Below, piece after piece: positions 52,606 through 63,571 of a stretch of 64,000 nucleotides of DNA. Origin of the DNA: Marilutibacter spongiae. Its GTDB lineage: Bacteria > Pseudomonadota > Gammaproteobacteria > Xanthomonadales > Xanthomonadaceae. The notes below the pieces were generated by a model. That model ran no database searches, had not been told where the DNA came from, and was given only the letters and a program-made list of their open reading frames with translations. Both the position numbers and the translations under genes were made by a program. Location: contig NZ_JACHTF010000007.1 of the NCBI RefSeq assembly GCF_014145325.1, forward strand, positions 62,001-126,000. The letters run 5' to 3'. The first letter of the stretch is position 1, and every line of letters starts with the position of its first letter.

Positions 52606-53874
52606 TCAGGCCACCCGCGACTCCGGGTGGCGCACCTGGCCGTCGCCACGGACCACGTAGCGTTCGATCGTCAGCGACTCCACGCCCATCGGCCCGTAGG
52701 CATGCAGGCGCGTGGTCGAGATGCCGATCTCCGCGCCCAGTCCCAGCGCGCCGCCGTCGTTGAAGCGGGACGAGGCATTCACCATCACCGCCGAACTGCG
52801 CGTACCGCGCACGAACGCCTCGGCCGCGGCCGGGTCTTCGGTGACGATGACCTCGGTGTGGTCCGAACCATGCCGATCGATCTGGGCGAGCGCGCCGTCG
52901 AGGTCGTCGACGACCTGCATCGACACCACCAGGTCGAGGAACTCGGCGCCATGGTCGGCCTCTTCGGCCGGCACCACGCCTTCGGCCGCGGCCACCGTGC
53001 GCGCGCAGCCGCGGACTTCCACGCCCTTGCCCTGGAGGGTGGACACCAGCCGCGGCAGCAGGCCGTCGACCAGGTCCTGGTGGACGAGGATGCCTTCGAG
53101 CGCGTTGCACACGCCCGGGCGGCTGGTCTTGCCGTCCACCGCCAGGTCGATGGCCTTGGCCGGATCGGCGGCACGGTCCACGTACAGGTGGCAGACGCCC
53201 TTGTAGTGTTTGATGACGGGAACGCGCGCGTGCTCGGCGACGAAACGGATCAGGCCTTCGCCGCCGCGGGGGATGGCCAGGTCGACCAGGTCCGACAACT
53301 GGATCAGTTCCATCACGTGCTCCCGCGCCGTGTCGGTGATCAGCGATACGGCGGCTTCGGGCAGCCCCTTCTCGCGCAGCGCGGCATGCAGGCAGCCGGC
53401 GATCGCGGCGTTGCTGGAACGCGCTTCGGAACCGCCGCGCAGCAACACGGCATTGCCCGCCTTCAGGCACAGTGCGGCGGCATCGGCCGTCACGTTGGGC
53501 CGGGCTTCGTAGATCATCGCCACCAGGCCCAGCGGAAGCCGCTGGCGTTCGATCACCAGACCGTTTTCATGGGTCTGGCTGCGGGTCACCTGCCCCACGG
53601 GATCCTCCTGGGCAGCGACTTCGCGCAGGGCATTGGCGATGCCAGCCACGCGCGCTTCATCGAGCTTCAGGCGGTCGAGCATGGCGCCCTTGACGCCGTT
53701 CTCGTGCGCACGCGCCATGTCCTCGGCGTTCGCCGCCAGGATCGCGTCGCTGCGCGCATCGAGTTCCGACGCCATGCGCTCGATCAGGGCCCGTCGCCCC
53801 GCGCCGTCCAGGGCGGCGATGGCGTGCTGGGCCGTGCGGGCCTTTTCGGCCAGGTCTCGGACGTATCCGCTCAT
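52606..53874 (-). CDS. proA: Gamma-glutamyl phosphate reductase
   Basis: 422-aa NADPH-dependent enzyme of proline synthesis, reducing glutamyl phosphate to glutamate semialdehyde. The aldehyde-dehydrogenase fold shows PLGLVAMIYEARPNVTADAA, GSEARSSNAAI and the catalytic Cys in GKTSRPGVCNALEGILV (near residue 245). ATGA overlap with proB. It is the last gene of the arg-pro block. Confidence 0.96.
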   Translation of the reverse strand: MSGYVRDLAEKARTAQHAIAALDGAGRRALIERMASELDARSDAILAANAEDMARAHENGVKGAMLDRLKLDEARVAGIANALREVAAQEDPVGQVTRSQTHENGLVIERQRLPLGLVAMIYEARPNVTADAAALCLKAGNAVLLRGGSEARSSNAAIAGCLHAALREKGLPEAAVSLITDTAREHVMELIQLSDLVDLAIPRGGEGLIRFVAEHARVPVIKHYKGVCHLYVDRAADPAKAIDLAVDGKTSRPGVCNALEGILVHQDLVDGLLPRLVSTLQGKGVEVRGCARTVAAAEGVVPAEEADHGAEFLDLVVSMQVVDDLDGALAQIDRHGSDHTEVIVTEDPAAAEAFVRGTRSSAVMVNASSRFNDGGALGLGAEIGISTTRLHAYGPMGVESLTIERYVVRGDGQVRHPESRVA

Positions 53875-55034
53875 GCATTCTCCTCGGTGTTGAGCAGAAC
53901 GAGGTCGTCGCGGTGGATCACGGACTCACCGAAGGTGAAGCCCAGCACGGCTTCGATCTCGTTGCTGTGGCGGCGCACGATGCGCCGCATGTCGGCGGCG
54001 CCGTATTGCGCCAGGCCGCGCGCCAACGCCGGCCCGTGGGGCTGTTCGTTGACGACTTCGATGACGTCGCCGCGGCGGAATTCGCCTTCCACGCGGACCA
54101 CGCCGCCGGGCAACAGGGAGGCGCCGCGCCGGTGCAGGGCGGCGGCCGCGCCGCCGTCGACCATCAGGCTGCCGCAGGACGGCGCGTGGCGCAGCCACTG
54201 CTTGCGCGCGGTCAGCGGATCGGACTCGGCCATCAGCAGGGTGCCATGCAGGCGCCCGTCCGACAGGGCCCGGATGACATCGGCATCGCGCCCGCAGAAC
54301 AGCACCGTGGGAATGCCGGCGGTCGAGGCCTTGGACGCGGCCTCGAGCTTGGTCAGCATGCCGCCGGTGCCCAGCTCGCCGGGATCGCCGGAGGCCGCGA
54401 GCAGCAGTTCGTCGGTGACCCGGTCGACCTTCAGGATCGGCGCCGCCGACGGCTCGTACTTGGGGTGCGCGGTGTAGAGCCCGCCGATGTCGGTCGCGAT
54501 CATCAGCAGGTCGGCATCGACCAGCGAGGCCACCGCGGCGGCGATGTTGTCGTTGTCGCCCAGGCGCAGCTTGTCGATCGCGACGGTGTCGTTCTCGTTG
54601 ACGATCGGCAGCGCGCCCACGCGCAGCAGCTCGCGCAGGGTGTTGCGCGCGTTGAGGTAGCGACGCCGGTTGAGCATGTCGTCGTGGCTCAACAGCACCT
54701 GGGCGGCGGGAATGCCGGTCAGGCGCTGCCAGAACGACACCAGCGTGGCCTGGCCGAGCGCAGCCAGGGCCTGGCGCTGGACGGGGCCGCTGTTGGTGGA
54801 TTCGATGCGGCGGCGGCCGGCGGCGACCGCACCCGAGGACACCAGCACCACTTCGCGGCCCTGCGAGCGCGCCTCGATGATGAAACGTGCGAGCACCGCC
54901 GCGTAGCGGGGATCCAGCCCGTCCTCGCTGGGCAGTTTGTCCGTGCCGGCGAGCAGGCTGCTGCCGACCTTCAGGACCGCGCGCTTCCAGTTCGGCAGCG
55001 GTTGCGCGGCGAATACCGTCTGTTCCGCGCTCAT
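53871..55034 (-). CDS. proB: Glutamate 5-kinase
   Basis: 387-aa first enzyme of proline synthesis. Amino-acid-kinase domain (about 15-270) with [24 protein letters not shown] and [17 protein letters not shown]; a C-terminal PUA domain (about 290-380). Feedback inhibition by proline is usual for the family. It overlaps argH by ATGA (stop of argH at 55031-55033). Confidence 0.96.
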
Positions 55035-56320
55035 CGCAAGGCCTCCAGGCGCTGCTTCAGGCTATCCAGGCGCAACGCGCCGGCGGCGCCCGGCGACACG
55101 CGGTCGTCCAGGCTGCGTTCGGGGTCGCCCTCGGCCCAGCGCGCCGGGTCGGCGGCTTCCCGGTAGGCCTCGCGGAACGGCATGCCGTCGCGCGCCAGCG
55201 ACACCGCCAGGTCGGTCGCGTACATCGATGGCTCCAGCGCGTCGCGCATGCGCGCGGGCTGCCACTCCAGGTTGCGCAACAGGTCCGGCAGCAGGGCCAG
55301 CGCGCCCAGGCCGCGGCCGAAGGCGTGGAAGATCGCGCCCTTGGAGAACTGCAGGTCGCGGTGGTAGCCCGAGGGCAGCGACAGCAGCTGCTCGATCTCG
55401 GTGCGCGCCGCCGCCGCGGCGGCATAGCTCGCGCGCATCAGCTCGATCACGTCCGGGTTGCGCTTGTTGGGCATGATCGAGCTGCCGGTCGTGTATTGCG
55501 AGGGCAATTGCACGAACCCGTATTCGGCGCTGGTGAACAGGCTCAGGTCCCAGGCCAGACGGCGCACGTCGAGCAGCGCCGAGCACAGGGCCTCGATCGC
55601 GGCCATCTCGAACTTGCCTCGCGACAATTGCGCGTAGGTCGCCGACACCTGCAGGCGGCCGAAGCCCAGTGCGGCGGTGGTGTGGTCGCGATCCAGCGGC
55701 AGGTTGACGCCGTAGCCCGCGGCGCTGCCAAGGGGGTTGGCATCGACCCACTCGCGCGTCTGCGCGGCGCGCACGGCGTTGTCGATGAAGCCCTCGGCCC
55801 AGGCGCTCCACCACATGCCCAGCGAGGAGACCACCGCCCGCTGCAGGTGCGTGTAGCCCGGCAGCGGCACGCCCTGCTCCACCTCGGCCCGCGCCAGCGC
55901 GACCTCGGCGCATTCGCGCGAAAGCGCCGCCACTTCCGACAGCTTTTCCTTCAGCCACAAACGCGTGGCGACCAGCACCTGGTCGTTGCGGCTGCGCCCG
56001 GTGTGGATCTTCTTGCCGGTGTCGCCGAGGCGTTCGACCAGGCGCGCCTCGATCGCCGAGTGGCCGTCTTCGTGCCTATCGTCGAGGACGAAGCGCCCGG
56101 CGCGGAAATCATCGGCCAGTTCCTCCATCTCGGCGCAGAGGCGTTCGAGTTCGTCGGCGCCCAGGATGCCGATGCGTTGCAGGCCTTCGGCATGCGCGCG
56201 ACTGGCCTGGATGTCGAACAGGAAGAATTCGCGATCGAGGACAACGTCCTCGCCGGCAAGGAATGCCTGGATGCGCGCGTCGACCTTGACGCCCGGCTTC
56301 TGCCACAGCAGTGGACTCAT
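55031..56320 (-). CDS. argH: Argininosuccinate lyase
   Basis: 429-aa fumarase/aspartase-superfamily enzyme releasing arginine and fumarate. Motifs: [35 protein letters not shown] and the flexible signature loop [14 protein letters not shown] with the catalytic Ser (near 268). Its start is immediately after the argC stop without overlap. Confidence 0.96.
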
Positions 56321-57292
56321 TCAGCAGTTCTCCAACACGGGGATGCCCGTCATTTCGTCCAGCCCGAAGGCCAGGTTGAGGTTCTGCAACGCCTGGGTCG
56401 CCGCGCCCTTGAGCAGGTTGTCCTCGGTGGCGACCACCACCAGGCGACGACCGTCCGCGGACACCGCGAAGCCGCCGATGTCGACATGGTGCCGCTGCGC
56501 GATCGCGCTGACCCACGGGGCTTCGTCGACCACGCGCACGAGCGGCTCGCCTGCATAACGCTGGCGATAGCGCGTCATCACATCATCCCGCTCGACCGGT
56601 GCGGCCAGCGGCAGGTTGGCCGTGATCGTCAGGCCCCTGAAATGCGGTGCTACATGTGGAAGGAAGTGGATCGGGTGATCCAACTGTCTGGAAACCTCGC
56701 GTTCGTGGACATGCCCCGTCAATGCGTAGGGCATCAGGTTGTTGCGTAAGGCGTCGGGATCGTTCTTGTCCGACGGCGTGGTGCCTGCGCCCGAATAACC
56801 GGAGACACCGAAGCACTGCACCGGCCCGTCGAGATCCGCGAGCATCGGCGCCACGGACAGTTGCATCGCCGTGGCATAGCAGCCCGGATTGCTGATCCTG
56901 CGCTGGCCGGTGTAGCGGCCACGGGTCAATTCCGGAAGCCCATAATACCAGCTTTCGTCGAACCGATAATCCGCGGACAGGTCGATGATGACCGGATCGA
57001 CGGCGATGCCGCGTGAAATCGCGTCGTCGAATGCGTCCACGCACAGCTTCGCCTTGCCGTTGGGCAAGGCCAGCACCACCGCGTCCGCGCCGAGCGCGGG
57101 CAAGGCCTCGTGCGAGGGCGACGAGTAGCGCAGGTCGCCCGCGTAGCTGTCGATGTGCGCGGCGACGGGTTGGCCGTCGAGTTCGCGCGATGACACGTAC
57201 GCCAGTTCGAACGCGGGGTGCGCCGCGATCAGGCGGATCAGCTCCGCGCCCACGTAACCGCGCGCCCCGACGATGCCGACGGTGATGCCCAT
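56321..57292 (-). CDS. argC: N-acetyl-gamma-glutamyl-phosphate reductase
   Basis: 323-aa NADPH enzyme of arginine synthesis. Rossmann motif [18 protein letters not shown], catalytic Cys in [15 protein letters not shown] (near residue 140) and [17 protein letters not shown]. The start MGITVGIVG at 57292 is one base away from the preceding GNAT stop; an upstream ATG is unlikely. An island of lower-GC codons near 56640-57000 is noticeable compared with neighbours. Confidence 0.95.
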
Positions 57293-57293
57293 C

Positions 57294-57932
57294 TCAGCGC
57301 CCTCCCATGGCGGCATGCCGTGCCAGCCTCGCGGCCAGGTGCCGCTTCACCGCGGGCCATTCGGATTCGATGATCGAGAACACGACGGTATCGCGGTAGC
57401 TGCCGTCGGCCAGCCGCTGGTGGTTGCGCAGGACGCCGTCCTGCTTCGCGCCGAGGCGCGCGATCGCCTCGCGCGAGCGCTGGTTGAACCAATGCGTGCG
57501 GAACTCCACCGCGATGCATCGCCACGCCTCGAAGGCGTGGGCCAGCATCAGCGCCTTCGTCGCGGTATTGGTCGACGTGCGCTGGGCGCGGGCGGCATAC
57601 CAGGTGTAGCCGATCTCGACGCGCCGGTTGCCGGCATCGATGTTGCAGTAGCTGGTCTGGCCGAGGACGCGGCCGTCATCCCGGCCGACGACGACGTAGG
57701 GCAGCTGCTGGCCCCGTGCCCGACGCTGCAGGCAGCCCTCCACGTGCGCGGCCATCGCGTCCGGGTGCGGCACGCCGGTGTACCACAGCTCCCACAGGCG
57801 GCCGTCCGCGCAGGCGTCGGCGAGGCCGTCGGCGTGGTGGGACTGCATCGGTTCCAGGCGGATGCCCCCGCCTTCCAGCACCGGCGCTTCGTGCATGTGG
57901 GCGGGCACGTGGGGGGGCACGTTCGCGGTCAT
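57294..57932 (-). CDS. GNAT-family acetyltransferase in the arg operon
   Basis: 212-aa RimJ/RimL-type N-acetyltransferase. It has [20 protein letters not shown] at the start, a beta-bulge strand [20 protein letters not shown] (near 105-125) and [20 protein letters not shown] for CoA binding. It overlaps argB by ATGA and is one base from argC, so it belongs to the operon; a similar gene occurs at this place in Xanthomonas. It is not the acetylglutamate synthase, because that activity is fused to ArgB here. A role in acetylating a pathway intermediate or a protein is open. Confidence 0.85.
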
Positions 57933-59287
57933 GCCTGCGCTCCCGCCGCCGGCCGGTCGTGCAGGGTCACCGGGCGCGTCGCGCAGTGCGCCACGCAGCG
58001 GCCGATCGCCTCGAAGCCGTCCATGCCGTACCAGAACACGCGCCACTTGCCCTGCCGCAGGCACCCGTCGGATTCGGAATGGTAGAAGGCGTTGACCGGA
58101 TTGCCGTTGCGCGAGCGCCAGAACAGGCTCGGGTTCTGCTCGTGCATGACCTGCCAGACCGCGCGGCCGAGGCCCTCGCCCTGCGCATCGTCGAGCACGG
58201 CGAACTTGTCGAGGTAGGTCCCGGCATCCTCGGCGGTCAGGATCACCGCGGCGCGGTAGTTCTCGCTGACGTAGGCCCGGTGGAGGCGCGTGGTCTCGAA
58301 GTAATCGGGCACCAGCTCGCGACCGAAGGCCGACTCGATCAGGCCGCGCAGGCGCGGCAGGTCCAGCTCGTCCCAGCGCGAGACCTGCAGGACGCGCTCG
58401 CCGCGTCGCACCAGGGTGCCCGAACCCTTGTGGGTGAACAGTTCCTTCGCCAGTTCGGACGGCTTGGTGATCGAGACCGAGGAGGTCAGCGGCAGCGAGT
58501 CGAGCAGGTCCTTGATCTGCTCGATCTTCACCTTCATGCCGCCGTTGACCCAGGGCTGGGCGAGAAGGTGTTCGTACTCGGTGGTGAGGTTGATCGAATC
58601 GATCACCTTGCCGCGCTCGTTGAGCAGCCCCCCGGTGCCGGTCAGGAAGACGATCTTGTAGGGCTGGAGCATCTGCACCAGCTCGTTGGCGGCGAAGTCG
58701 GCGTTGACGTTGAGGATCTGCCCGCCGGCGGTCTCGCCCAGGCTGGCGATGACCGGGATCGAACCGGCCTTCAGGCTGGCCTCGATCGGCGCGAGGTCGA
58801 CGCGCTTGACCTGGCCGACCATGCCGTAGGTGTCGCGGTCAAGGTACTCGGCCTCGAACACGCCCGACACGATCGACGTGGCGCGCGCGTCGAAGGCCTG
58901 CAGCGCTTCGACCAGCTTCAGGTTCTGGGCATGGAACACGCGGCGCACGATCGCCAGGGCCTCCGGCGAGGTGACCCGCAGGCCGTCGACGGTATGCTTC
59001 TCGATGCCCGCCGCGGCGAGTTCGCCATCGAGCTGGGGCCCCGCGCCATGGATGACGATGGGCGTCAGGCCGACGTCCTGCAGGAAGGCCAGCGACGAGG
59101 TGAGCGCGTCGAGGTCGTCGCGCAGGACCGCGCCGCCGACCTTGACCACGGCGAAGCGCTTGGCGTCGAGCTGCGAGAAGCGCTTGAGGTACTGCGAGAT
59201 CTCCTTCGCGCTCGCCATGCTGGACAGCAGGCGGACGATGGTCTGCCGGGTCTGGATGTCGCGGCTGTCTTCGCGGATGTCGTTCAT
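57929..59287 (-). CDS. argB: Bifunctional N-acetylglutamate synthase/kinase
   Basis: 452-aa protein of the xanthomonad/vertebrate-like NAGS-K type. The N-terminal amino-acid-kinase domain (about 40-290) has [27 protein letters not shown] and [13 protein letters not shown]; the C-terminal GNAT domain (about 300-450) has [20 protein letters not shown] and [12 protein letters not shown] for acetyl-CoA binding. It makes N-acetylglutamate and phosphorylates it, the first two steps. Start MNDIREDS at 59287, 8 bp after the argE' stop. Confidence 0.93.
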
Positions 59288-59295
59288 GGCGATGT

Positions 59296-60393
59296 TCAAG
59301 TCGGTCGCCCGGTATCGAGGATGCGGATGATGGATTCGGTGTAGCGCTGGAGCTGCCGCAGTTCGACCCACTCGTCGGCCGTGTGCGCCTGCGCGATGTC
59401 GCCCGGGCCGTACACGAATGCCGTCAGCCCCGCCTGCGAGAACAGCGAGGCTTCGGTCCAGAAGTCGACCGCGTTGCCGATCGGCAGGCCCAGCTCGTCG
59501 GCGAGGTCGCGTGCGTCCAGGCGCTTGCGCTCGGCATCGGCGACATCGCCGCCCGGCAACGAAGGACCGCGGAAGGTCTCCTCGTAGTGCGCCAGCGCAT
59601 CGGCCCCGGCGAGACCGCGGAAGGTGTCGTGCAGACCATCGATGGACATCGACGGCAAGGGGCGGAAGCCGAAGCGCAGCTCGGCGCTGGGCGCGATCAT
59701 GTTGGCCTTGATCCCCCCCTCGACCCGGCCGATGTTGAAGCGCAGCCCGGTCAGGCCGCCAAAACGCTGGTGGGCCTGCGCCTCGACGAGGTCGAGCGCG
59801 CGGCCGCCCCAGCGCATGGCCTGGTGCAGGGCGCTGGCCTGCATGGCGTTCGCCCCCGAGGCATGCCCGGCCACGCCCTTGAATTTCATCAGCACCGAAC
59901 TGATGCCCCGGTGCGCCAGCACGGCCTCGCAACCGGTGGGCTCGGCGATGATCGCTTCGCGGAAGCCGTGGTCGCGCGCGAGGAAGGCGGCGATGCAACG
60001 CGGATCGTTCGCCTCCTCGTCGGTGCTGAAGAGGAACGCGGCGTCGCCTTCCGTCACCGAGGCCGCGGTCAGCAGGCCGGCCGCGGCACCCTTGATGTCG
60101 CAGGCGCCGAGGCCGATCGCGCGGTCACCGTCCACCCGCAGCACGTGCGGGTCGGCCGACCACGCCTCCGAAGACGGCACGGTGTCGAGGTGGACGTTGA
60201 ACACGCGGGTGGGCGCGCCGCGCACGGCGAGCATGGACACCGCCCCGGCGCCATGGTCGACGACCTCGATGTCGAAGCCGTCCAGCTGCGCGCGCAGGTA
60301 GTCGAAGATGCCGCCGGTGCCGATCTCGCGCGGGGGGTTGCGCGTATCGAACCCGACCAGGGCTTCCAGGTGCTTGAGGGTCTTGGCCAGCAC
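59296..60393 (-). CDS. argE': N-acetyl-L-citrulline deacetylase (ArgE-like)
   Basis: 365-aa M20-family metallohydrolase. Metal-site motifs: [10 protein letters not shown] (near 65-74), [13 protein letters not shown] (near 97), the catalytic STDEEAND (near 123) and HTADEW near the end. In xanthomonads this ArgE-type protein removes acetate from acetylcitrulline, which fits the acetylornithine carbamoyltransferase in the same operon. It begins at a GTG (60393) with GAGGA about 10 bp upstream. Confidence 0.88.
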
Positions 60394-60405: not shown

Positions 60406-61662
60406 TCAGTCCTGCGCGGGGCCGCGGTTGATCTCGGCCCACAGCGTGCTGCTCATGCCGAACAGCTTGATGAAGCCCTCGGCCTCGGCCACGCCCCAGT
60501 CCGCGGCCTGGGCGTAGGTCGCGCCCTTGGCGTTGAGGATGTTCGGCGAGTCGATCGCGACCGCGTTGACGATGCCGCCGGTGGTTTCCAGCGTCACCTC
60601 GCCGTTGACCGTGGACTGGCTGGACGCGAGGAAGGCCTCCAGGTCGGTCTTGAGCGGATCATGGAAGAAGCCCTCGTAGACCAGCTCGACCCACTTGCGC
60701 GCGACGTCGGGCTTGAAGCGGTTCTGCTGCTTGCTCAGCACCGCTTCTTCCAGCGCACGATGCGCGGTCAGCAGCGCGAACAGGCCCGGCGCCTCGTACA
60801 CGATGCGGCCCTTCAGGCCGATGGTGGTGTCGCCGGTGTACAGCCCGCGGCCCACGCCGTAGGCCGCGAACAGGCCATTGAGGCGCGCCAGCATCGCGTG
60901 GCCCGCGATCGCCTCGCCATCGAGCGCGACGGCTTCGCCGTTCTCGAAGCGGATCTTCACCCGCAATGCCTCGGCGGGCCACTCGGCGCGCGGCTTGCAC
61001 CAGCCGCGCGCGCCCTCGCCCGGCGCCTGCCAGCGGTCGATCTCGCCGCCGGAGAGCGTCACGCCGAGGAGGTTCTCGTTGATGGTGTAGGCCTTCTGCT
61101 TGGCGCGCACGCCGAAGCCGCGCTCTTCCAGGTAGGCCTGCTCGTAGGCGCGGACCTCGGTGTGTTCCTTCTGGATCTCGCGGATCGGGGCGATGATCTC
61201 GTAGTCGCCCAGCGCCTTGACCGCCAGGTCGAAGCGAACCTGGTCGTTGCCCATGCCGGTGCAGCCGTGCGCGATCGCACGCGTGCCCAGTTCCCGGCAA
61301 CGCTCCAACGCCGCCTCGACGATCAGGTAGCGGTCCGACACCAGCAAGGGGTACTGGCCCTGGTAGCCCTCGCCCGCCCACACGAAGGGCTTGACGAAGC
61401 CCGACCAGATCGCAGGACCGCCGTCGACGGTGACGTGCGAGGCCACGCCCAGCTCGGCCGCACGCTGCTCGATGAACGCACGCTCCTCGGCATCGACGCC
61501 GCCGGTGTCGGCGAACACAGTATGGACCTTCCAGCCGCGCTCCTGCAGGTACGGCACGCAGAAACTGGTGTCCAGGCCGCCGGAGAAAGCGAGGACGATG
61601 TCGTTGGCGCCGTGATTCGGGATTCGGGATTCGGGATTGGCGGGAGCGGTTTGCTGCGGCAT
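60406..61662 (-). CDS. argG: Argininosuccinate synthase
   Basis: 418-aa ATP-dependent ligase joining citrulline and aspartate. The PP-loop is [17 protein letters not shown] (near residues 27-43), followed by the usual [16 protein letters not shown] and [18 protein letters not shown]. The normal N-terminus would be close to M[11 protein letters not shown]; here about 18 extra residues ([18 protein letters not shown]) precede it, encoded by the 7-bp repeats. No alternative start close to the conserved part is evident. Confidence 0.95.
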
Positions 61663-61750
61663 GGGAGCGTCCAGGAATTTCGGAATGGAGGGATCAGTTC
61701 AAAGCGGAGGGCGTGGTCGGAGGGTCACGAAGCAACGATCACGAATCACC
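61613..61750. repeat. Heptanucleotide repeats in inverted arms (copy 2)
   Basis: Left arm: GATTCGG three times plus GATTGGC at 61614-61641, inside the 5' end of argG. Right arm: ATCACGAATCACC at 61738-61750, spanning the last codons and stop of argF'. The outer part (GTGATTCG ... CGAATCAC) is inverted as in copy 1. Here the centre holds the 76-bp argF'-argG spacer and the start of argG. Confidence 0.7.
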
Positions 61751-62752
61751 ACCCCCCACCAGCGCGGCCATCACCGCCTTCTGCACGTGCAGGCGGTTCT
61801 CGGCCTCGTCGATGGCGATGCAGTTCGGGGAATCCATCACCGCGTCGGTCGCCTTGACGTTGCGGCGCAGCGGCAGGCAGTGCGAGAACACGCCGTTGTT
61901 GGTCAGCGCCATCTTGGCTTCATCGACGATGAAGTGCTTGTACTGGTCGCGGATGGGCTTTTCCGGCGCCCAGTTGCCGAAATACGGCAGTGCGCCCCAG
62001 CTCTTGGCATAAACGACGTCGGCGCCGGCATAGGCCGACTCGATGTCGTGGCTGACCTGCAGCGATCCGCCCGATTCGGCGACATTCGTGGCGGCCCAGT
62101 CCATGTAGCGCTCGTCGAGCACGTACTCGGGGGTGGGACACAGCAATGTCACGTCCATGCCCATGCGGGTGGCGATGGTCAGCGCCGAATTGGCCACCGC
62201 CGTATTGAGCGGCTTGGGGTGGTAAGTCCATGTGAGGACGTACTTCCTGCCGCGCAGGTCGTCGGTGCCGAAGTGCTCGCGCAGCGCCAACGCGTGCGCC
62301 AGCTCCTGGCAGGGATGGGTGATCGTCTCCATGTTGATCACCGGCACGGGCGAGTACTTGGCGAAACTCTTGAGGACGAGGTCCTCGCGGTCGCAGGCCC
62401 AGTCGACGAACTTCGGGAAGGCGCGCACGCCGATCAGGTCGACGTAGCGGCCGAGCACGCGGGCGACCTCCGCGATGTGTTCCTCGGTGTCGCCGTCCAT
62501 CACCGTGCCGAGGTTGAACTCGATCGGCCAAGCGTCCTTGCCCGGCTGCAGCACCACCGCGTGGCCACCGAGCTGGAACGCGCCGAGCTCGAAGCTGGTC
62601 CGCGTGCGCATCGAGGGATTGAAGAACACCAGGGCGATCGAGCGGCCCTTGAGCTGCGCGCCCAGCTTGCTGCGCTTGAACCCGGCCGCCTGCACCAGCA
62701 GCGCGTCGAGGTCCGGGCGGGACCAGTCCTGGGTATTCAGAAAGTGCTTCAT
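61739..62752 (-). CDS. argF': N-acetylornithine carbamoyltransferase
   Basis: 337-aa member of the carbamoyltransferase family, very similar to Xanthomonas AOTCase, which acts on acetylornithine instead of ornithine. Carbamoyl phosphate site NPSMRTRTSFELGAFQLGG (near 46-64), PCQ motif in ITHPCQELAHAL (near 145), GTVMDGDTEEHIAEVARVL, characteristic of the AOTCase branch, and HCLPLRRNVKATD near the end. First structural gene of the operon; preceded by the putative Arg attenuator. Confidence 0.94.
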   Translation of the reverse strand: MKHFLNTQDWSRPDLDALLVQAAGFKRSKLGAQLKGRSIALVFFNPSMRTRTSFELGAFQLGGHAVVLQPGKDAWPIEFNLGTVMDGDTEEHIAEVARVLGRYVDLIGVRAFPKFVDWACDREDLVLKSFAKYSPVPVINMETITHPCQELAHALALREHFGTDDLRGRKYVLTWTYHPKPLNTAVANSALTIATRMGMDVTLLCPTPEYVLDERYMDWAATNVAESGGSLQVSHDIESAYAGADVVYAKSWGALPYFGNWAPEKPIRDQYKHFIVDEAKMALTNNGVFSHCLPLRRNVKATDAVMDSPNCIAIDEAENRLHVQKAVMAALVGGGDS

Positions 62753-62815
62753 CGCGAGTTCCAGATGGGGGCGCCAGGCCGGCGCCGGTCGGAGGTTTGC
62801 CGGGCCAGAAAGCAG

Positions 62816-62843
62816 AAAAGCCCAGCGGTCAGGCTGGGCTTTT
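62816..62843 (-). terminator. Terminator hairpin in the arg leader
   Basis: On the minus strand AAAAGCCCAGC (62843-62833), loop CTGACC and GCTGGGCTTTT (62826-62816): a perfect 11-bp stem including the A/T parts, followed by CTGCTTTC. Located about 65 bp before the argF' start. It could work in both directions. Confidence 0.75.
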
Positions 62844-62890
62844 CTTGTGTCACCCGTTCGGGGGGCGACTCCAGAAACAGGCGATGACGC

Positions 62891-62995
62891 CTACCCAGCC
62901 AGTGTTGGCGGGTACGGTCGGCGCGCGCGCGAGGTCATGCCCGCCGCCATCCAGGCGGAGGTCAGAACGTCGGCGTCGGCGTAGTGGCGGCTCAT
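62891..62995 (-). CDS. Putative Arg-containing leader peptide
   Basis: 34 codons from ATG 62995 to TAG 62893-62891; shorter starts at ATG 62950 or 62938 would give 19 or 15 residues, the last reading MTSRARRPYPPTLAG. Arg residues 24, 26 and 27 (CGC, CGC and the rarer CGA) lie just before the protector arm, and the last codons and stop lie within the region that pairs with it and with the terminator arm. No good ribosome-binding site is visible, so it remains tentative. Confidence 0.45.
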   Translation of the reverse strand: MSRHYADADVLTSAWMAAGMTSRARRPYPPTLAG

Positions 62996-63068
62996 CAGGA
63001 CGCGAATGCTCGCATGCCGCCGGGCGACGCGCAAGCGGCCGCCATGGCCGCGGCGGGAGGCCGGACGA

Positions 63069-63542
63069 TCACGGCCGCTCGGCCCCGGCCGCGACGGGCG
63101 TGATCGAGACCCGGATGCGGAGCCGGTTGCCGGGATCTTCCGGCAGGCGGGAGCGGAACTTGGCCCCCTTGTAGAGATAGTCGACGTCGTAGGCGATCGG
63201 GCGCTGGAACTCGCGCTCCACCGGCACCGACCGGCAGTTGGTCGTGCCGGCGGCCGCCGTGTCCTCCTCGTCGTCGTCGTTGCCGCGGGTGAACACGTCC
63301 TTGACCGCGCCGACCATGCGCGACAGGCGCGAGTCGCCCTCGTCCTCGGGGCGCGGCGTCTGGTCGCACTTCTCCTCGACCCGCGTCGCCGTCAGGGTCT
63401 GGTACACCGGCGTGACCCGCAACACCTGCGCGTAGTCGTAGCGTACGTTCTCGGCCTGGATGACGACGCGGTCCTGGGCAAACGCCGGGACGGACAGGGT
63501 CGCGACCAGCAGGAGGCATGGCAGGGGGAAGAGACGGGTCAT
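63069..63542 (-). CDS. Secreted UmoD-like protein lacking a glycine zipper
   Basis: 157-aa exported protein: signal peptide ending SVPAFAQ (near residue 20), a conserved first part [18 protein letters not shown] and a conserved last part [20 protein letters not shown], two Cys. This frame is typical of UmoD-like proteins, in which a glycine-zipper membrane segment normally joins the two parts. Here the joint is a hydrophilic acidic stretch ([17 protein letters not shown]). Function is unknown. The ATG at 63542 gives the signal; a TTG at 63569 is the alternative. Confidence 0.65.
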
Positions 63543-63571
63543 CGCGCTCGCAGGGTCGTATCTGTTCAAAA

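Follow-up and report, generated by a model that had tools for sequence, protein, structure and literature searches.

A candidate arginine-sensing transcription attenuator precedes the acetylated-arginine operon of Marilutibacter spongiae and its relatives

Leader-peptide attenuators are known for the his, trp, thr, leu, ilv and phe operons, and to our knowledge no transcription attenuator has been described for arginine. Accounts of arginine synthesis in Gammaproteobacteria usually center on ArgR, and one study reportedly predicts feedback through arginine codons in the arginine biosynthesis of E. coli. Attenuator leader peptides on leaderless transcripts are found in Corynebacterium, and in fungi the arginine attenuator peptide (arg-2/CPA1) represses translation when arginine stalls the ribosome. 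The nearest described sensor, according to the available part of its report, is orf34 of Salmonella speF, a short upstream ORF in which two consecutive Arg codons sense arginine via ribosome pausing (PMC6386406). Judged by titles and abstract beginnings, searches of the open-access literature returned no transcription attenuator that senses arginine in front of an arginine operon, and they gave no match to the strings MTSRARR and GMTSRAR. The word 'Xanthomonad' does not occur in the accessible portion of a study of ArgR regulons of Proteobacteria (PMC5343134), nor does 'attenuat' in that of a further paper (PMC4258820).

The window analyzed here is a stretch of 64,000 nucleotides of Marilutibacter spongiae (contig NZ_JACHTF010000007.1, forward-strand positions 62,001 to 126,000) and contains an acetylated-arginine operon on its minus strand, to which all of the following coordinates refer unless noted. 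The first gene 3' of the leader is argF' (61739..62752), encoding N-acetylornithine carbamoyltransferase (NCBIfam NF003384, E 5.1e-191). It is followed by argG (argininosuccinate synthase, 60406..61662; NF003385), an argE type deacetylase gene (59296..60393; NF006439), an acetylglutamate kinase gene of the argB type, argC (56321-57316) and argH (55031-56320), the last two lying in a span for which TIGR01850 and TIGR00838 were given (55031..57316), and then by proB and proA (52606..55034; TIGR01027 and NF001221), which are putative operon members on the same strand. The kinase match (NF003386) covers residues 247-680 of an ORF at 57929..59998, and the real start of the kinase gene is internal to that ORF. 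The gene 5' of the leader (63069-63569) encodes a short protein with a signal-peptide-like start that has no Pfam match and an NCBIfam match below threshold only. The 243-nt leader region folds at -112.1 kcal/mol compared with -96.3 kcal/mol for shuffled sequences (z -3.23, 1 of 200 shuffles as good), and its structure is more than chance. At gathering score, an Rfam scan of the whole window returned only a tRNA and no T-box or riboswitch, the sole riboswitch-type match in the leader being a fluoride hit with an E of 2.1 on the opposite strand.

An earlier note on this sequence had proposed that the region contains, in classical order, a short leader peptide with clustered Arg codons (SRARRP), a protector stem directly after them, a competing pairing and a terminator. 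Each of these elements lies on the minus strand where it had been placed. The leader ORF, which is conserved in the family, comprises 34 codons and a stop codon (62891..62995; MSRHYADADVLTSAWMAAGMTSRARRPYPPTLAG, with a C-terminal end reading MAAGMTSRARRPYPPTLAG). It includes the motif MAAGMTSRARR (62918..62950), which family comparison shows to be frozen and whose SRARR portion is encoded by TCG CGC GCG CGC CGA (62918..62932), the last codon, CGA, occupying 62918-62920. A search for argF' succeeded in 148 of 149 family genomes, with 145 strong matches, weak ones in G044, G108 and G125 and none in G051; upstream regions were taken for the strong matches except in G104 and G128, whose contigs start less than 200 bases upstream. 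A leader ORF of the type ...MA(A/S)GMTSRARRP... is present 5' of argF' in all 143 family loci examined, 142 of which carry SRARR and one SRART. This number is composed of 141 loci found with a motif pattern, L108 (MASGMTSRART) and the separately added L293; without L293 there are 142 loci with a located argF' start, and L108 is the only one of these outside the pattern. L108 (G141) belongs to the smallest sampled genome of genus g42 and has its last Arg changed to Thr. The leader and SRARR are likewise kept in 80 of 80 further named loci, which come from Lysobacter, Xanthomonas, Stenotrophomonas, Luteimonas and Pseudoxanthomonas as well as from a few metagenome bins and overlap in part with the family set. 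Five consecutive Arg codons in another frame (62967-62981), to which the note had also drawn attention, do exist, and their candidacy as a sensor was rejected: the stretch is a GCCGAC repeat that codes for ADAD in the leader frame and offers no start codon, and its absence, by eye, from Xanthomonas-type leaders makes a sensing role unlikely.

A promoter pattern is found immediately upstream of the leader and would result in a leaderless mRNA. The earlier note had listed the lack of a clear promoter and of a ribosome-binding site as weak points, and a strict sigma-70 consensus scan likewise yielded no promoter, including between the terminator and argF'. Because such a scan is too strict for elements of the type TTGCGC/GAGCAT, the positions before the leader were instead compared with random ones. 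Of 139 loci, 135 carry the pattern TTG-N16-18-xAxxxT just 5' of the leader ATG, compared with 126 of 2780 random positions (L045 and L063, which have no ATG start, were omitted), with a spacing of 17 in 130 loci and a gap to the leader ATG of 6-10 nt in all but one, which would answer the promoter objection. In the window, the predicted -35 element TTGCGC (63029..63034) is separated by 17 nt from the -10 element GAGCAT (63006..63011), which is preceded by TGC in an extended -10-like manner and lies 10 nt before the leader ATG. The predicted transcription start is at or just before the leader AUG, most specifically at 62997, 2 nt 5' of it, based on homology to the 5' RACE end of the X. oryzae RNA Xoo5 and on the first position of the corresponding Rfam model (RF02242) in seven relatives. 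As the predicted promoter ends 6-10 nt before the AUG, the leader mRNA is probably leaderless, which would account for the absent ribosome-binding site and answer the second objection. The arrangement differs between families of the order. The gap is 7 in all three f2 loci, and the promoter pattern fits none of the seven loci of the f3 set. An ATG was found in 10 of the 12 f12 loci (L238, L251, L252 and L284-L292) at 24-31 nt from the -10 element, or at 21 nt in L290 if its second ATG is used. No Shine-Dalgarno sequence is visible by eye in the f12 copies, which are unlike the leaderless f1 and f2 copies. Among 23 leaders of deeper families, the gap is 6-10 nt in 12 and 22-45 nt in eight, three show no pattern, and a gap of 6-10 nt occurs at 40 of 2800 random positions.

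The same RNA has been detected in Xanthomonas oryzae. According to the available text of the 2011 report, the 5' end of sRNA-Xoo5 was set by 5' RACE and the RNA is located between PXO_00354 and PXO_00353 (PMC3039613), the latter being annotated, in the record as available, as N-acetylornithine carbamoyltransferase. The Rfam model RF02242, whose consensus starts with 'cuAUG', matches at full length directly 5' of argF' in all seven supplied family loci with 100-145 bits (1233-1356 in L007, X. melonis). The window copy scores 31.3 bits (E 7.5e-5), below the gathering score of 50, and is an Xoo5 orthologue by position, not an RF02242 member by threshold. Judged by sequence and location, Xoo5 is the argF' leader. 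The RF02242 model stops short of the terminator and draws another structure, and the cloned 3' end of Xoo5 also lies before the terminator in the account available to us (PMC3039613). The same text describes two growth-phase dependent Northern bands of about 130 and 100 nt (PMC3039613); the terminated leader predicted for X. melonis measures 158 nt, and the bands are shorter and do not fit it. Seven of the eight X. oryzae sRNAs, Xoo5 included, were deleted; the mutants grew normally in both rich and minimal medium, their flanking genes were reportedly unaffected, and loss of Hfq affected only Xoo1, 2 and 3, as far as the accessible text goes (PMC3039613). If the Xoo5 deletion removed the antiterminator and left the terminator in place, argF' expression should have fallen. 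Xoo5 is treated as an sRNA of unknown function in the accessible main text, where the words 'arginine' and 'leader' do not appear (PMC3039613).

The leader is followed by a terminator and contains two mutually exclusive pairing options. The terminator is formed by a 5' arm (62833..62845) and a 3' arm (GCUGGGCUUUUCU, also written GCTGGGCTTTTCT; 62814..62826) that fold as AGAAAAGCCCAGC-ctgacc-GCTGGGCTTTTCT (62845-62814) into 13 perfect pairs, in agreement with its earlier description as perfect, and its 3' end lies 61 nt before the argF' start. The U-tract is broken in the window (CTTTTCTGC) and weaker than in many relatives. A script run without a shuffle control detected an intrinsic terminator between leader and argF' in 140 of 141 family loci, L105 being the one in which it detected none. 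The hairpin is nearly symmetric and carries A- and T-tracts, as might be expected if its only function were to end transcription of the preceding gene, argF' having an ordinary promoter of its own and no regulation. That explanation is contradicted as it stands, and we consider it very improbable: 135 of 139 loci show the promoter pattern just 5' of a leader whose peptide is conserved, L108 has retained its leader behind an upstream gene that by eye looks different, and the X. oryzae RNA was, by the available account, mapped from the leader AUG. The protector folds from a 5' arm (UACCCGCCA, also written TACCCGCCA; 62906..62914) that adjoins the Arg codons, as proposed, and a 3' arm (UGGCUGGGUA, also written TGGCTGGGTA; 62892..62901) that overlaps the leader stop codon. 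The antiterminator segment (GGCUGGGU, also written GGCTGGGT; 62893..62900) overlaps the stop codon as well and can pair with the terminator 5' arm; the competing pairing of 8 bp is present with eight pairs, one of which is G-U rather than a standard pair. An extra hairpin of the window copy, GUCGCCC..GGGUGAC (62849..62869), appears inside the antiterminator loop in the computed folds. Of the 132 family loci with a recognizable second segment, 125 form the protector and seven lack it, the mean fold being -13.8 kcal/mol compared with -9.9 kcal/mol for shuffles. When 14 nt starting at the CGA codon were blocked to represent a ribosome, the second segment paired with the terminator arm in 131 of 132 folds. 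The distribution that the earlier note had named as damaging, a terminator conserved without the leader ORF and protector, did not occur. The second segment was not recognized in eight loci (L063, L089, L110, L116, L122, L124, L125 and L129), which may use another pairing or be degenerating. L116, L122, L125 and L129 belong to genus g42 and contain the motif without a recognizable GCUGGGU-type segment.

Covariation, suggested previously as a check on the pairings, is evident for the antiterminator as two-sided changes between families and is weak in the protector columns. The ungapped alignment of 104 distinct loci yielded a single strong two-sided protector pair (columns 6-31, 26 cells). This weakness results from clades using registers shifted by one base, for which reason per-sequence folding was used. 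Paired antiterminator changes between families include GCUGGGU/ACCCAGC, GGCCGGGU/ACCCGGCC and GCCAGGUU/AACCUGGC. Across 183 loci of ten families, the antiterminator core forms all 7 pairs in 148, six in 27 and five in eight; the partner was taken as the best match, which favors pairing, and in 128 of the 183 its distance to the last Arg codon is the same. One position reads T-A in 115 loci, C-G in 34, T-G in 23, C-A in 10 and A-A in one, leaving 11 unpaired. L281 and L282 have no terminator and stand outside the covariation and pair counts. Eight pairs of the type GGCCGGGT with ACCCGGCC are found in 7 of 12 f12 loci and GCCAGGTT with AACCTGG(C/T) in two of four f8 loci, the antiterminator pairing of L316 and L317 (f8) being poor at -7.2 kcal/mol. 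Swapping terminator arms between families cost the duplex little stability (-15.0 kcal/mol before and -13.9 kcal/mol after), a weak test given that CCCAGC and CCCGGC account for most arms.

Codon choice in the motif points to a single tRNA-Arg isoacceptor. R6 is CGA in 139 of 141 family loci, and CGA makes up 8 of the 299 Arg codons in nine window ORFs; the CGA at 62918-62920 is the likely stall codon. Over 163 loci, near-identical ones included, the R3, R5 and R6 codons are CGC (247), CGA (161), CGT (80) and CGG (1), so that 488 of 489 are CGC, CGT or CGA. Deeper leaders use CGC (42), CGA (32), CGT (24), CGG (2) and AGA (1), the first three accounting for 98 of 101. The isoacceptor whose anticodon is ACG (inosine) decodes CGC, CGU and CGA. 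Thirty of the genome's 46 tRNA loci were scanned, and these include tRNA-Arg with anticodons ACG, CCG, TCT and CCT. In the proposed mechanism, RNA polymerase would start at or a few nucleotides before the leader AUG and a ribosome would begin on the leaderless transcript. When arginine is plentiful, this ribosome would pass the CGC/CGU/CGA codons and reach the stop codon overlapping GCUGGGU; by covering this segment it would leave the terminator free to form, yielding a short leader RNA. When arginyl-tRNA of the ACG-anticodon isoacceptor is short, the ribosome would halt on RARR, most likely at CGA, and cover the protector left arm, so that GCUGGGU could pair with the terminator 5' arm and transcription would continue into argF'. 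Without translation, the protector would form and transcription would terminate.

We therefore propose, with high though not complete confidence, that an Arg-tRNA-sensing, ribosome-mediated transcription attenuator controls the acetylated-arginine operon from argF' onward. This supports the central claim of the earlier note and draws on the leader (143 of 143), the promoter pattern, the pairings, with the protector in 125 of 132 loci and the stalled-ribosome antiterminator in 131 of 132, the paired antiterminator changes, the codon choice and the distribution, all of them read from sequence. From these features we infer the stalling, the direction of the response and the tRNA species. Counting against the attenuator are the C-A mismatch in 10 of 183 loci, the missing protector in seven of 132, the two loci L299 and L315 without a leader and the Xoo5 deletion without a phenotype.

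Conservation of the leader peptide extends past its Arg codons, and the frozen non-Arg residues are not accounted for by a classical attenuator. Identical in all 141 pattern loci are A-6, A-3, M0, T1, S2, R3, A4, R5 and R6, an invariance that is partly by construction, as the search pattern fixed S2 and R6 and allowed only M/I/V/L, T/S, R/K, A/S and R/K elsewhere; most third bases vary, and the S2 codon is TCG in 134 of the 141. Among 108 distinct sequences, synonymous and non-synonymous differences number 4 and 0 at A-6, 51 and 0 at A-3, 39 and 0 at T1, 16 and 0 at A4, and 40 and 2 at G-1, so the non-Arg motif residues appear to be under constraint at the amino-acid level. The constraint ends at the CGA codon of R6: P7, the next residue, shows 29 non-synonymous differences. 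Arrest peptides of the SecM/TnaC kind are conserved at the amino-acid level before the stall codon, and such conservation is found here, subject to the pattern bias just described. The constrained stretch is about as long as what we take the upper exit tunnel to hold, and its pattern is that of a putative arrest peptide. A frozen MA(A/S)GMTS in the exit tunnel could itself produce the stall at RARR/CGA, or reinforce it, making the leader an arrest peptide that responds to arginine or arginyl-tRNA instead of a simple series of hungry codons; this nascent-peptide arrest would be compatible with the attenuator and change how the stall is made. We regard it as possible, with the balance leaning against it, considering that R-5 and A-2 vary freely inside the stretch (39 and 40 non-synonymous differences at -5 and -2, and 21 at -4), that deeper families manage without the motif and that only 67 of the 80 named loci have its strict form, the other 13 carrying one or two altered residues at G-1, A-2, M0 or T1. 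About as tentatively, we suggest that in the crown of the order an Arg-run attenuator may have given rise to an arrest peptide of fixed sequence, MA(A/S)GMTSRARR, which ends on an almost invariable CGA codon and is read from a leaderless mRNA in most of these families; nascent chain, rare codon and one tRNA-Arg isoacceptor would jointly set the stall. If so, the deeper families would keep the older, sequence-free form and the path from codon-run attenuator to arrest peptide would be traceable.

In the genomes searched, leaders of this kind were found in the order only and, where fetched, in front of argF'. When 249 genomes of the order were searched with a profile of 39 leader peptides, no family besides f1, f2, f3 and f12 gave a match with E below 1e-6, and among 370 genomes of the class, including at least 5 of the order, matches outside the order were at chance level only (best 1.8e-4, with two internal stops). 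All 22 non-f1 profile matches that were fetched lie 120-270 nt before argF'. This constancy argues against the leader transcript or its peptide acting in trans on other targets, to which the Rfam entry as an sRNA, the two growth-phase dependent Xoo5 bands in the available text and the conservation of the peptide beyond its Arg codons would lend themselves. The leader moreover has its own terminator and antiterminator covariation, and the published Xoo5 deletion and Hfq results, as far as available, fit poorly with such a role, which we judge unlikely. The attenuator gains further ground from the deeper families. In f4-f10, where argF' is 61-71% identical, other leader peptides with Arg runs (RRRR, RRLRR) take the same place, among them NPRRRRVSQSTAG, VRRLRRPGYH, GRRARRTRRPLLAG, ALRRRRRLSQRRAG and VVVRRRRPVKRMELFG. 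The deeper set comprised 28 loci from 29 genomes of f3-f11, picked by hand and not at random (L305 has no upstream sequence); in 22 of the 28, a terminator is accompanied by a leader in which 3 or more of 9 codons are Arg, compared with 11.9% of shuffled sequences, and in 18 by one with 4 or more, compared with 3.0%. Of the 22, L294 (f3) carries SRARRT and the other 21 are unlike the family motif. No leader was found in L299 (f5), L315 (f9) and three f11 loci. The script detected no terminator in these five loci or in L318, which shows a leader by eye, had its terminator missed and was counted as a miss. Part of the leader region in L303 (G154) is duplicated in tandem upstream of argF' with N between the copies, possibly an assembly artefact.

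The leader occurs where ArgR does not. ArgR (PF01316) was found in none of the 149 family genomes, the window's own included, with controls positive in 9 of 14. It is present in six of the 249 order genomes, all of family f11, and missing from 243. The f11 argF relative is only 41% identical and directly preceded by a coding gene, by eye an aminotransferase, and in G158, G175 and G194 the ArgR match is found at a distance of about 1.2 kb. Leader and ArgR are mutually exclusive among the loci examined; since L299 and L315 have neither, this is not a perfect exchange. The absence of ArgR together with the Arg-run leaders of the deeper families strengthens the attenuator reading. An order that contains plant pathogens as well as environmental Lysobacter and Stenotrophomonas, mostly without ArgR, would have a candidate transcription attenuator instead, the orphan Rfam sRNA Xoo5 would gain a putative function, and the missing leader ribosome-binding site would be explained. 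The related leaders also form a natural series in which codon-run and peptide-motif sensing can be compared.

The argF' leader shares with the his, trp, thr, leu, ilv and phe attenuators an ORF rich in codons for the end product, alternative protector, antiterminator and terminator structures and a stop codon on the second segment. It differs from the his/trp type in its amino acid, arginine, in being found where ArgR is not, in a predicted leaderless start in the Lysobacter/Xanthomonas family, f2 and 12 of 23 deeper leaders, though not in f12, and in placing three Arg codons in a frozen motif (f1, f2, f3 and f12). The leaderless leader peptides of Corynebacterium belong to Actinobacteria and to other amino acids. 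The fungal arg-2/CPA1 peptide is likewise a short peptide regulating arginine synthesis; it is eukaryotic, has the opposite sign and involves no terminator. The speF/orf34 system, in the available part of its description, concerns polyamine synthesis and operates through RNase G, Rho and access to the ribosome-binding site, with no intrinsic-terminator switch and outside arginine biosynthesis (PMC6386406). The cysS uORFC-8-2 of Rhodobacterales, as the accessible part of the source presents it, is likewise predicted to be a ribosome-mediated attenuator and has tandem codons for the amino acid concerned; it differs from the argF' leader in sensing cysteine, in preceding a tRNA-synthetase gene and in belonging to Alphaproteobacteria (PMC8632094).
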